This document shows positions 8,301 through 48,830 of a stretch of 53,666 nucleotides of DNA, piece after piece (position 1 is the first letter of the stretch; each line of letters begins with the position of its first letter). Source of the stretch: Bacteroidota bacterium (lineage in GTDB: Bacteria > Bacteroidota > Bacteroidia > Bacteroidales > Paludibacteraceae). The stretch covers positions 1 through 53,666 of the forward strand of contig JAKIYP010000011.1 in assembly GCA_022708505.1 (NCBI GenBank), in the 5' to 3' direction. The notes under the pieces were generated by a model, which was not told where the DNA came from, ran no database searches, and was given only the letters and a program-made list of their open reading frames with translations. Made by a program: the position numbers and the translations under genes.

Positions 8301-8331
8301 AAAAAAACCCGGGAATAAATTAATTCCCGGG
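8301..8331 (-). terminator. Rho-independent terminator, minus strand
   Basis: Perfect 9-bp GC-rich stem CCCGGGAAT/ATTCCCGGG with loop TAATTT, followed on the minus strand by seven consecutive T. This is the cleanest intrinsic terminator in the window, and no protein gene ends at it. Confidence 0.75.
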
Positions 8332-36700: not shown

Positions 36701-37336
36701 TTCGGTGGATTAGACCACGTACTTGCTTCCGGTAAAAATGTGAACATCTTAGTGTTGGATACTGAAGTTTATTCGAACACAGGTGGACAGGCATCCAAAT
36801 CGACTCCGGTTGGTGCCGTTGCCAAGTTTGCAGCATCCGGAAAACGTGTTCGCAAGAAAGACCTGGGTATGATTGCTGCCACTTATGGATATGTATATGT
36901 AGCTCAGATCGCGCTGGGAGCTAATCAGGCTCAGGCATTGAAAGCCATCCGCGAAGCAGAAGCATACGACGGGCCATCTGTAATCATTGCTTACTCACCT
37001 TGTATCAGTCACGGACTCGTTGCCGGCATGGGTAGTTCAAACGGAGAACAACAGGAAAATGCGGTAAAATCAGGATACTGGCATCTGTATCGTTACAATC
37101 CGGCTTTGGAAGAAGAAGGTAAAAACCCGATGCAGCTGGATTCTAAAGAACCGCAATGGGATATGTTCCAGGACTTCCTCCGCAGTGAAGTGCGTTATAC
37201 CTCTCTGTTGAAACAGTTCCCGGAAGCAGCCAAAGAATTGTTCATCGCTGCCGAAGACAATGCCAAATGGCGTTACGCGTGGTACAAACGCATGAGCGAA
37301 CAGCATTTTGCGGCACCGGTTGTTGAATCGACCTAA
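33779..37336 (+). CDS. nifJ: Pyruvate:ferredoxin (flavodoxin) oxidoreductase
   Basis: A 1,185-residue single-chain PFOR that oxidises pyruvate to acetyl-CoA and CO2 and reduces ferredoxin. The N-terminal pyrimidine-binding domain carries YPITPSSTMAEY, followed by the CoA-binding and gamma-type domains. A two-cluster ferredoxin domain starts at C691 (CIQCNQCAYVC), with a second set, CMGCDNCAEVC. The proximal cluster cysteines CAGCGETPY and the thiamine-diphosphate motif GDGWAYDIG (D967) through NTGGQAS complete the active site. The length and all motifs are standard. It supports a strict anaerobic lifestyle. The REP cluster begins 36 bp after its stop. Confidence 0.97.
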   Translation: MAKQKKFLTCDGNQAAAHIAYMFSEVAAIYPITPSSTMAEYVDEWAAKGRKNMFGETVQVQEMQSEGGAAAAMHGALQAGALTSTFTASQGLLLMIPNMYKVAGELLPGVYHVSARALASHALSIFGDHQDVMAVRQTGCAMFATGSVQEVMDLAAVAHLASIKSRIPFVHFFDGFRTSHEIQKIEEIDQDAVTALIDQDALADFRNRALNSESPVVRGTAQNPDIYFQAREACNPFYDAVPGIVENYLDELAKITGRKYGLFDYYGDPEADRVVIAMGSATEAIREGIDYLMAKGEKVGLISVHLYRPFSAKHFLSVLPKSAKRICVLDRTKEPGAGGEPLYLDVKDVLYGAENQPLVVGGRYGLSSKDFTPAQVLSVFENLSLPSPRNQFTVGIVDDVTFTSLPMKEEIPMGGEGIYEAKFYGLGADGTVGANKNSIKIIGDNTDKYCQAYFAYDSKKSGGFTCSHLRFGDTPIRSTYLVTTPDFVACHVQAYLRLYDVTKGLKKNGTFLLNTVWTAEEVKNNLPINVKRYLAKNNIKLFIINATNIAQEIGLGHRTNTILQSAFFKITNVIPYELAVKEMKNAIVKSYGKKGEKVINMNYAAVDRGGEYTVVDVPAEWANLVDENDIIDSNIPDFIKNIVVPVNKQAGDDLPVSVFKGREDGTWIQGTTKYEKRGVAATVPVWEMENCIQCNQCAYVCPHAAIRPFILDEAEQANAPFASLKANGKQFAGMTYRIQVDVLDCMGCDNCAEVCPGNKNGKALKMVPIETQYENQDNWDFCVENVKTKQHLVDVKANVKNSQLATPLFEFSGACAGCGETPYVKLVSQLFGERQIVANATGCSSIYSASAPSTPYTTNDEGRGPAWANSLFEDNAEFGLGMLFANEQMRDRIERLMTAAINENCCSDELKGLFAEWIENKNDGDKTLELAAKIKPLVKEGKCGYCKEISGLSKYLVKQSQWIIGGDGWAYDIGFGGLDHVLASGKNVNILVLDTEVYSNTGGQASKSTPVGAVAKFAASGKRVRKKDLGMIAATYGYVYVAQIALGANQAQALKAIREAEAYDGPSVIIAYSPCISHGLVAGMGSSNGEQQENAVKSGYWHLYRYNPALEEEGKNPMQLDSKEPQWDMFQDFLRSEVRYTSLLKQFPEAAKELFIAAEDNAKWRYAWYKRMSEQHFAAPVVEST

Positions 37337-37371
37337 TATTAAAACGCACGAACGTTCAAACGTACGAATGT

Positions 37372-37452
37372 GTAGAGACGCCCTATTAGGGCGTCTAATA
37401 TTAACGAAATGCAAATGTGCATGACAGAGACGCCCTAATAGGGCGTCTCTAC
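37372..37452. repeat. REP palindrome pair, left flank of the RAYT gene
   Basis: Two palindromes with arms AGACGCCCTA/TAGGGCGTCT lie head to head at 37372-37396 and 37426-37452: the outer GTAG sits on the left of the first and the outer CTAC on the right of the second. A small hairpin, ATGCAAATGTGCAT (37409-37422), precedes the second. They sit between the nifJ stop and the 3' end of the RAYT gene and may also end both transcripts. Confidence 0.85.
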
Positions 37453-37515
37453 GTTTGTGCAATATTGAAAATGATGCAAAATTGATTTGAAAATAATGCG
37501 CAATGTAATCATCGT

Positions 37516-38100
37516 TCAAAAAAAATGGTCATCAACCCATTTCAATGGATTATTGATAATGTAATGTTCTATACGAACATATGATTCATGATTTCTGATG
37601 ATATGGTCGTAAAAACGGGTTTGCCATGCAAAGTGTGGATTGATTCTGCGTATATCGATGGTTACTTTCCGTTTGTACTGATTGATAATAACACCCAGTG
37701 TTTCAGGTTTCCATTTTTTTGATGCCGCCATTGTTTGTTTTATTGTAGAGACGCCCGAATCGGGCGTCTCTACATTTTGTAAATCGGGCACCTCTACGTT
37801 TTGTAAATCGGGCGTCCGTACGTTTGGTTTATCAATTATTACAATCCCATGAATATGATTCGGCATAATCACAAATGCACCTAAATGTACATACGGAAAA
37901 TGTGTCGGAATTTCTGTCCAATATTGTTGTGCAATTTTTCCAATTTCCGACAATTCCATTTTGCCTTCAATGATATTCCCGAAATAAAAGGTACGTTTTT
38001 GTGTGCAGATCGTTATAAAATAGGGGGCATTCCACCCATAATCCCAATTCTGCATACGTGTAGATAGTATACGAAATCGATTGAAAAATTTTTCATTCAT
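37516..38100 (-). CDS. REP-associated tyrosine transposase (RAYT)
   Basis: A 194-residue HUH-superfamily single-strand transposase related to IS200/IS605 TnpA (Transposase_17). Evidence: WDYGWNAPYFITICTQKRTFYFG near the N-terminus, the metal-binding HUH motif in MPNHIHGIVII, and the C-terminal helix region FYDHIIRNHESYVRIEHYIINNP, which should contain the nucleophilic Tyr. It looks intact. Between the HUH motif and the C-terminal region lies an insert of three in-frame octapeptides (TPDLQNVE, VPDLQNVE, TPDSGVST) whose DNA is itself REP palindrome sequence (37745-37824). Palindromes of the same family flank the gene on both sides, as expected for a RAYT and the elements it mobilises. Confidence 0.88.
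   Translation of the reverse strand: MNEKFFNRFRILSTRMQNWDYGWNAPYFITICTQKRTFYFGNIIEGKMELSEIGKIAQQYWTEIPTHFPYVHLGAFVIMPNHIHGIVIIDKPNVRTPDLQNVEVPDLQNVETPDSGVSTIKQTMAASKKWKPETLGVIINQYKRKVTIDIRRINPHFAWQTRFYDHIIRNHESYVRIEHYIINNPLKWVDDHFF
37745..37824. repeat. REP palindrome and 24-bp repeats inside the RAYT coding sequence
   Basis: A palindrome with perfect 14-bp arms (GTAGAGACGCCCGA and its complement, 37745-37773) is followed by two partial units repeating every 24 bp (TAC at 37771 and 37795, each continuing nTTTTGTAAATCGGGC). The period is a multiple of three, so the RAYT frame is kept. The sequence differs from the flanking palindromes in the central bases (GAATC in place of TAATA). Confidence 0.85.
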
Positions 38101-38168
38101 GATTTGTAATAGGTTAATTGGTTTGTAAACAGGATGTAAATATAATCAAAAATTGATTATTTAACACC

Positions 38169-38309
38169 GTAGAGACGCCCTATTAGGGCGTCTGTTTAAT
38201 AAATGTGCGAAATTGGTGGTATTGTTGTAGAGACGCCCTAATAGGGCGTCTATTATATTATGGCAATGCAAATGTGCATGGTAGAGACGCCCTAATAGGG
38301 CGTCTCTAC
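38169..38309. repeat. REP palindrome cluster, right flank of the RAYT gene
   Basis: Three palindromes with arms AGACGCCCTA/TAGGGCGTCT at 38169-38193, 38227-38251 and 38281-38309. The last has the full GTAGAGACG...CGTCTCTAC arms and is preceded by the same small hairpin, ATGCAAATGTGCAT (38266-38279), seen before 37426, so the repeated unit is hairpin plus palindrome. After it, 38310-38368 is an AT-rich stretch with recurring TTATCG motifs leading into the surE stop. Confidence 0.85.
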
Positions 38310-38360
38310 ACGTTATCGCGTTATTGAATTATCGTGTTATTAAATTATCGGATAATTGAA

Positions 38361-39137
38361 TTATCGAATTATGGCATCCATCACCCCCCGCAATTCCCCC
38401 AAATATTCATGCGCCGTCATATCAATCTTAGTCGGCACCACTGACACATAATCATTAGCCAGCGCCCATTCGTCGGTATCCTGCGCTTCGGGTTCGTGGT
38501 TATCGAAATAGCCTGTCAGCCAATAGTAGTTGCGACCATGGGGGTCGGTGGCCCTTGCAAATTCCTTTGTCCAGTGCCCCTCGCACTGACGGGCTATCTT
38601 AACGCCCTTAATAGCAGCTTTAGGTGCGTTTACATTCAAACAAATGCCGTAAGGCAACCCATTTTTCAATATCTGTCGGGCTATTTGGAGTATATAAGGT
38701 TCAAAAGCAGAAAAATCAGCATCCGGATCGAAATTGGAGATGGAATAACCTATCGATGGTATAGCATTCTCACATCCTTCCAGCACAGCCCCCATCGTTC
38801 CTGAATAAATAACATTGATAGCTGCATTGGAACCGTGATTGATTCCGGATACCAGTAAATCGGGTTTCCGGTGTAACACCTCATTCAACGCCAGCTTCAC
38901 ACAGTCTGTGGGAGTTCCGTTGCAGGAGTACCGAATCAGTCCGGGTTTATCTTCCAGCTTCTTAAAACGAATCGGATGGTTTACAGTAAGCGCGTTCGAT
39001 TGACCAGAACGGGGTCCATCCGGCGCCATCACCACAACATCTCCAATTTCCATCATCAACTTTGTTAATACATTAATTCCTTTGGCTGTATCGCCATCAT
39101 CATTGGTAATCAGGATCAACGGTTTCTTTTCTGACAT
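38361..39137 (-). CDS. surE: 5'/3'-nucleotidase SurE
   Basis: A 258-residue survival-protein E phosphatase acting on nucleoside monophosphates. The metal-binding motif LILITNDDG has D13 and D14; the SGQSNALT loop and the Asn in SGINHGSNAAINVIYSGT complete the site. The length is typical. It is the last gene of a tight minus-strand operon (29 bp after lpxH). REP palindromes lie just beyond its stop and may protect or end the transcript. Confidence 0.95.
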   Translation of the reverse strand: MSEKKPLILITNDDGDTAKGINVLTKLMMEIGDVVVMAPDGPRSGQSNALTVNHPIRFKKLEDKPGLIRYSCNGTPTDCVKLALNEVLHRKPDLLVSGINHGSNAAINVIYSGTMGAVLEGCENAIPSIGYSISNFDPDADFSAFEPYILQIARQILKNGLPYGICLNVNAPKAAIKGVKIARQCEGHWTKEFARATDPHGRNYYWLTGYFDNHEPEAQDTDEWALANDYVSVVPTKIDMTAHEYLGELRGVMDAIIR

Positions 39138-48357: not shown

Positions 48358-48830
48358 TTAAACTGAACAACCATTCGCCACCAACGATTTATATGCCCCA
48401 ACAATATCAGATACCCCCGTAGGGGCAGGGTTCACCCCTGCCCTGATAATATCATTTGCAATAGGGGTAATGTCATCCCCATTTGGGGCAACCGTGTTCC
48501 CATTTGGGGCAACCGTGTTCCCATTTGGGGCAACCGTGTTCCCATTTGGGGCAACCGTGTTCCCAATAGGGGCAACCGCAAGGGTTGCCCCTACGGTGGC
48601 GGGATTCGTCAATAATATGATGGCATGGATATGGTTTGGCATTATTTGAAACACGTCCAATTCTAGATTTGGGTAACGTTCGGGTAATTTCATCCATTCA
48701 TCAAATGCAATTTGCCCATATTGATTCACTTCACACTGATACCTGTTATCTGCAATCTCGCTGAAACGGTATTTGCCAACTACAATCCCACGCTTTCTTT
48801 TTCGATTTTTCTCCTTGTTTCTTACATCCG
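48358..48830 (-). pseudogene. Decayed RAYT transposase carrying REP-derived repeats
   Basis: The HUH motif region QIAFDEWMKLPERYPNLELDVFQIMPNHIHAIILL is clear, as is DIVGAYKSLVANGC. The frame ends two codons after that (SV, stop at 48358), before the C-terminal helix with the nucleophilic Tyr. The N-terminal FITICT region is missing: upstream codons (RGIVVGKYRFSEIADN...) stay open to about 48838 but lack an ATG and run into the end of the neighbouring HigA gene. A GTG at 48729 is the first possible start. Between the two conserved parts lies an expanded repeat (48423-48593). I judge it an inactive remnant. Confidence 0.75.
48423..48593. repeat. REP palindromes and 21-bp tandem repeats inside the RAYT remnant
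   Basis: Two palindromes frame a tandem array. The first is at 48423-48443 (arms GGGCAGGG/CCCTGCCC); the second is at 48567-48593 (perfect 11-bp arms TAGGGGCAACC/GGTTGCCCCTA). Between them, a 21-bp unit containing GGGGCAACC repeats with starts at 48481, 48502, 48523 and 48544, plus a variant at 48565. On the coding strand it reads as four copies of the heptapeptide NTVAPNG. Confidence 0.85.

Follow-up and report, generated by a model that had tools for sequence, protein, structure and literature searches.

Passages of Quentin et al. (2018, PMC6006769) on subclass 2.4 single out as remarkable and unique its in-frame REPs within tnpA_REP genes, which mostly lie between HuH and Y. The same passages state that the variable region of this subclass may affect activity little, refer in a general way to short linker repeats and assign to subclass 2.4 the 100 RAYTs that form group 4 of Bertels et al. 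2017. REPs inside many other genes are reported in passages of Di Nocera et al. (2013, PMC3733652). Word searches found no mention of internal copies in Nunvar et al. 2010 (PMC2817692) and no mention of a cis role, autoregulation or intragenic copies in PMC8266576. Among open-licence papers, none was found that tests how internal copies are conserved, which frames they use or what they do.

The locus described here lies in the window, the whole 53.7-kb stretch of DNA that was analysed. Like subclass 2.4 in the passages of PMC6006769, where it is recorded from Bacteroidetes and many other phyla, the locus combines HuH, W and Y motifs, a variable beta3-alphaC insertion, double-foot REPs, and REPs both beside the gene and in frame inside it. 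There was no difference in kind; the window member has a REP-derived 24-bp minisatellite with a varying copy number. Short palindromes kept in frame inside proteins are also known as intragenic GTAG/CGTC REPs and Rickettsia palindromic elements (passages of PMC3733652), whereas the hosts there are various genes, many of replication or repair, and the host here is the cognate transposase. The original prediction had treated the in-frame copy as new, which does not hold in view of the published passages on subclass 2.4 (PMC6006769). An in-frame REP within a RAYT gene is a published phenomenon, and, taken by itself, the window case is nothing unusual for its subclass; new are the survey counts, the own-flank matches, the two-frame reading, the third-position conservation and the sole copies in two genomes. 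The best explanation of the locus is very probably that of a subclass 2.4 RAYT with REPs on both sides, one REP having been copied in frame into its beta3-alphaC loop.

The RAYT gene and its REPs

The RAYT gene (37516..38100, minus strand) is an ORF of 194 aa, a TnpA_REP with subclass 2.4 features. Its neighbours are surE (38361-39137) on one side and, on the other, a pyruvate:ferredoxin oxidoreductase-like gene whose end is at 37336; both names were given by eye from the sequences. The subclass 2.4 motif set NH[IFV]H, WQ and YIxNNP was present in full, with the HuH motif NHIH at residues 81-84, WQ at 159-160 and YIINNP at 180-185. The NCBIfam model NF047646 (REP_Tyr_transpos) matched in two stretches with 50.3 bits and E 2.3e-13, below its 80-bit cut-off. 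Pfam, searched with HMMER filters that drop most weak matches, gave no family up to E 10, PF01797 (Y1_Tnp) included. An AlphaFold2 model had a mean pLDDT of 81.5, and Foldseek matched it to 4er8 (E 4.3e-06), to ISDra2 TnpA (E 3.6e-06) and to IS608. The protein is thus predicted to share the Y1 HuH fold with E. coli TnpA_REP (PDB 4er8) and IS200/IS605 TnpA, the sequence match to 4er8 being weak (E 0.0095). It differs from these in that some 40 residues between the HuH strand and alphaC are modelled at low confidence: in the model, a loop at about 90-130 with pLDDT about 50 separates the strand 82-89 (HuH) from the helix 135-151 (alphaC), corresponding to the variable beta3-alphaC insertion of the subclass. 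Assigned by its motifs, predicted fold, loop and REP features, the window RAYT is a member of TnpA_REP subclass 2.4.

Five flanking REPs with the GT[AG]G foot, located by palindrome scans and genome sites and annotated without a strand, surround the gene. Two lie downstream (37372..37396 and 37426..37452) and three upstream (38169..38193, 38227..38251 and 38281..38309); the last is a double-foot REP, the others have one foot. Inside the gene, with the frame kept, palindrome scans located a perfect double-foot REP with arms of 15 (37744..37774, minus strand), the longest palindrome of the locus, which has the centre CCCGAATCGGG and encodes VETPDSGVST. The six palindromes, five flanking and one internal, were thus found where the original prediction had placed them, and the different centre of the internal copy was correct; its arms, given there as 14 bp, measure 15. 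Two tandem 24-nt half-REP units (37774..37821, minus strand), offset from the frame by part of a codon, encode NVEVPDLQ and NVRTPDLQ. On the coding strand GTACGGACGCCCGATTTACAAAAC is followed by GTAGAGGTGCCCGATTTACAAAAT and then by the full REP. Each unit consists of the left REP part and a short spacer and encodes an octapeptide NVxxPDLQ, so that units and REP together give NVRTPDLQ / NVEVPDLQ / NVETPDSGVST at residues 93-119, after NHIH 81-84 and before the helix 135-151. The two partial units of 24 bp and the octapeptide repeat between the HUH motif and the helix had been predicted as such and were confirmed on the coding strand.

The window contained eight palindromes with an arm score of at least 10, the six of the RAYT locus, one at 48567-48593 and one at 8307. 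With at most one mismatch, GAGACGCCC occurred at 12 sites, all within 37375-38306, against an expectation of 4.43; one of 100 shuffled windows reached 12 sites. In the window's own genome, a 2.4-Mb draft of 75 % completeness, GACGCCCNANTNGGGCGTC had 15 sites, six at the RAYT locus and nine on other contigs, and the reversed control pattern had none. The centre CCCTAATAGGG or its complement (TAATA/TATTA) was present in 14 of these 15 copies, the internal copy alone having GAATC. The gene is therefore a RAYT whose palindromes belong to the REP family of its genome and whose in-frame REP is now part of the protein linker, as predicted, and the nine copies outside the locus supply the further genomic occurrences on which that prediction depended. 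The 19 Rfam matches with E of at most 1 in 37000-38700 lay mostly over the palindromes, each under the gathering score of its family, and were discarded.

Further repeats were observed. A 16-bp tandem array of three overlapping copies (38313-38372) adjoins the last flanking REP. One of the nine copies on other contigs, in L014 (G000:C100), ends a 465-aa ORF at residue 464 and supplies its last residues; this ORF presumably encodes a phosphohexose mutase, which it resembles by eye. The remaining ORFs of at least 80 aa over copies elsewhere (161, 115 and 86 aa) looked spurious by eye. At 48358-48729 on the minus strand, a truncated second RAYT remnant forms a 123-aa ORF, in which the palindrome 48567-48593 is read in frame (VGATLAVAPIG) and the heptapeptide NTVAPNG is repeated four times, REP-derived by appearance. 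This remnant is an independent second case of an in-frame REP within the window.

A syntenic orthologue, L051 in genome G061, has the RAYT at the same place between the same neighbours. Its insert contains four half-units, compared with two in the window gene, and its full REP equals the internal REP of the window except for two bases at one foot. SurE was identical in 258 of 258 residues and in 106 of 118 four-fold sites, the oxidoreductase in 1176 of 1185 residues and 475 of 544 four-fold sites, and the RAYT core in 143 of 153 residues and 37 of 43 four-fold sites. The lower residue identity of the RAYT at a similar silent divergence means that its amino acids change faster than those of these neighbours. 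Between the window and L213, the RAYT core was 93 % identical and five neighbouring proteins were 97.5-100 % identical, with similar silent divergence for most. A faster decay of flanking than of internal REPs was not seen between the window and L051, both being little changed. Among the sites listed for G061 were one further GAATC-centred REP elsewhere, TAATA-centred ones and other REP types.

In-gene palindromes of related RAYT genes

Relatives were collected by similarity to the window protein from among the matches listed. The survey comprised 151 loci (L018-L130 minus L020 and L022, plus L161-L200), of which 40 were hand-picked among the matches listed, mainly from genomes with two or more, and yielded 139 genes, the window gene among them. 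The gene finder requires an open frame from HuH to the W motif and misses genes broken by an insert, hence the in-frame state is partly given by construction. Palindromes with an arm score of at least 9 were found in the linker of 108 of the 139 genes, in the N-terminal part of 10 and in the C-terminal part of 5, and in 23 of 1390 codon-shuffled linkers; 31 of the 139 genes had no linker palindrome at this threshold. A chance origin of the palindromes was rejected on the basis of these codon-shuffled linkers, the window shuffles and the 15 genomic sites against none of the control. A second in-frame site, a loop in the N-terminal half, carried a REP-like palindrome in L067, L080, L102, L168 and L184; in L080 (Mucilaginibacter) and L102 (Sphingobacteriaceae) it was present without a linker copy. 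On a quick tree of 142 columns with many unresolved forks, the presence of a linker palindrome required no fewer than 24 changes, while shuffles gave 28.2 and 6 of 500 were as low; the reading phase needed at least 15 changes, and the 69 REP types needed 80.

Exact matches to the flanks (1.5 kb on each side of the gene) were sought for 105 genes; L003-L017 were omitted and L001, L002, L021, L082, L107 and L128 yielded no gene. The linker shared at least 20 nt with its own flanks in 38 of the 105 genes and with foreign flanks in 4 of 525 comparisons; at 12 nt the values were 62 of 105 and 83 of 525. These 38 matches run counter to the case that would have refuted the original prediction, inserts with no relation to the genomic REPs; an own-flank match is far from universal. 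N-terminal segments matched their own flanks over at least 20 nt in six of 105 genes, perhaps due to nearby duplicate RAYTs. A strong flank match of the internal copy in the window was rejected: its longest match is 14 nt because its centre differs from that of the flanking REPs, and the window gene therefore stands outside the 38. Where a genome had at least two such genes, a 20-nt match of the internal palindrome to its own flanks occurred in 12 of 39 cases, to the flanks of a paralogue in 2 of 59 and to those of a random gene in 10 of 780. In both paralogue matches the two genes carry the same REP (L167/L030 with a core identity of 0.98, L187/L048 with 0.83). Beside a RAYT gene in G028 (C22:14293-14746, among the sites listed), four REPs followed each other at regular distances of about 143 bp, as repeats of a larger tandem unit that contains a REP.

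Origin and persistence of the in-gene REP

One mechanism can join the anatomy of the locus, its family features, the loop predicted to be disordered and the two versus four half-units of the syntenic orthologues. REPs would be deposited at and near the RAYT gene, through local action of the enzyme on single-stranded DNA or through REP-REP recombination. Insertions that disrupt the protein would be lost, and the loop copy would survive because the frame is kept and the active site is distant. A half-REP with its spacer may then have expanded and contracted as a minisatellite, giving rise to the octapeptide, and the internal copy would thereafter move along with the gene. The original prediction had proposed self-targeting, autoregulation through the transcript or a tolerated insertion site; of these three ideas the last is best supported, by the disordered loop, the frame switches and the varying copy number. 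Orthologues do not all share one insert, which would have spoken against that prediction: the half-unit number differs in L051, and the inserts of relatives have other sequences. Against local deposition stand the limited number of genes with an own-flank match of at least 20 nt and the mere 14 nt of the window copy.

The conservation of the inserts was compared in 35 pairs of relatives, every gene being used in one pair only. At third codon positions the palindrome reached an identity of 0.81, compared with 0.63 for the core and 0.59 for the remaining linker; four-fold core sites stood at 0.55. The palindrome exceeded the remaining linker in 30 of the 35 pairs (Wilcoxon p 6.6e-07) and did not exceed it in the window gene/L051 (0.91 versus 0.92), L130/L129, L114/L088, L161/L175 and L033/L126. 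When pairs were allowed to overlap (80 of the 108 genes with a palindrome, each having a partner at 60-97 % core identity), identity was 0.82 over all palindrome positions and 0.51 at four-fold core sites, the palindrome being higher in 74 of 80; the rest of the linker (gaps omitted) was at 0.75 there, so the contrast is overstated in this version. A recognised foot was present in 82 of 122 linker palindromes, 53 of them in phase 0, 29 in phase 1 and none in phase 2, which would place TAG in frame. The two phases yield unrelated peptides, VET..SLQ-like versus CRD..VST-like. In L042/L043 all 28 of 28 palindrome nucleotides were identical though the linker is read in another frame, while four-fold sites were 0.58-0.61 identical. 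In their genomes, G159 and G103, the internal REP was the only site found at up to 2 of 18 mismatches; G200 had 18 sites. G056 (81 % complete) held the internal REP as the sole exact site of its pattern, G098 (70 % complete) as one of two exact sites, and G114 as one of two sites at up to three mismatches, the other being altered and close upstream of the gene. Many REP copies were present in G042, G028, G029 and G226, among the sites listed.

These comparisons suggest that the DNA of in-gene copies is better conserved than expected for a harmless passenger; a pure passenger predicts neither the third-position excess of the palindrome over the remaining linker nor the finding, in G159 and G103, of an intact internal REP and no other site. 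A selected peptide, acting as a surface or DNA-binding element, would explain why most inserts recur at one protein position, but it is very unlikely in view of the two phases with their different peptides, the predicted disorder of the loop and the frame change of L042/L043 with identical letters. The survey data thus lean against both a pure passenger and a peptide role. Tentatively, the in-gene REP may instead be a maintained nucleotide element, either a putative RAYT-bound ssDNA or mRNA hairpin limiting expression or a cognate target kept with the moving gene. Besides the third positions and the sole copies, both-arm changes that keep pairing in L036/L049 and L028/L048 and a strong predicted hairpin in the RAYT mRNA of the window (z -5.28 for 241 nt) speak for it. 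Against it stand the five pairs without an excess, the window gene/L051 among them, the genes without a linker palindrome at the threshold used, and the equal conservation to be expected from homogenisation by other REPs, where such copies exist, or from a recent horizontal transfer. L042 and L043 had no other common ORF of at least 90 aa in 12.5 and 10.3 kb, L043 ending with its contig on one side, and the REP was found in only 2 of 16 genomes of their genus; recent separate acquisition from REP-rich donors could therefore explain the intact letters.

Pairing could also survive without selection if a mutational process, hairpin-templated repair or template switching, kept the palindrome perfect. 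Among related linkers, compensated pair changes (at least 415) were about as common as pairs broken on one side (at least 398), with at least 50 broken on both sides and at least 95 single and 10 double changes to G-T; these counts are from ordered pairs whose palindromes were at least 0.6 identical, and such pairs are not independent and in part misaligned. We regard such a process as improbable, since it preserves pairing and not letters, all 28 of which are retained in L042/L043, and since stems with the same T-G mismatch recur in relatives, for example CGTGCCATGGCGCG in L037, L094 and L106. Given possible homogenisation, possible horizontal acquisition and the gene finder that accepts open frames only, local deposition with tolerance was kept as the main reading.

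To our knowledge, it is an open question what keeps REPs and domesticated RAYTs matched and for what reason RAYTs persist. The nucleotide conservation over many relatives is compatible with a putative cis role. It is conceivable, if doubtful, that the in-gene REP of subclass 2.4 is a cis element retained at the nucleotide level in any frame, even as the last genomic copy, so that the enzyme would sense its own gene or transcript and the cognate site would move along. A gene with its own target in frame offers a compact setting for studies of REP-RAYT matching, and in the survey pairs L042/L043 and L036/L049 nucleotide and peptide constraint diverge.
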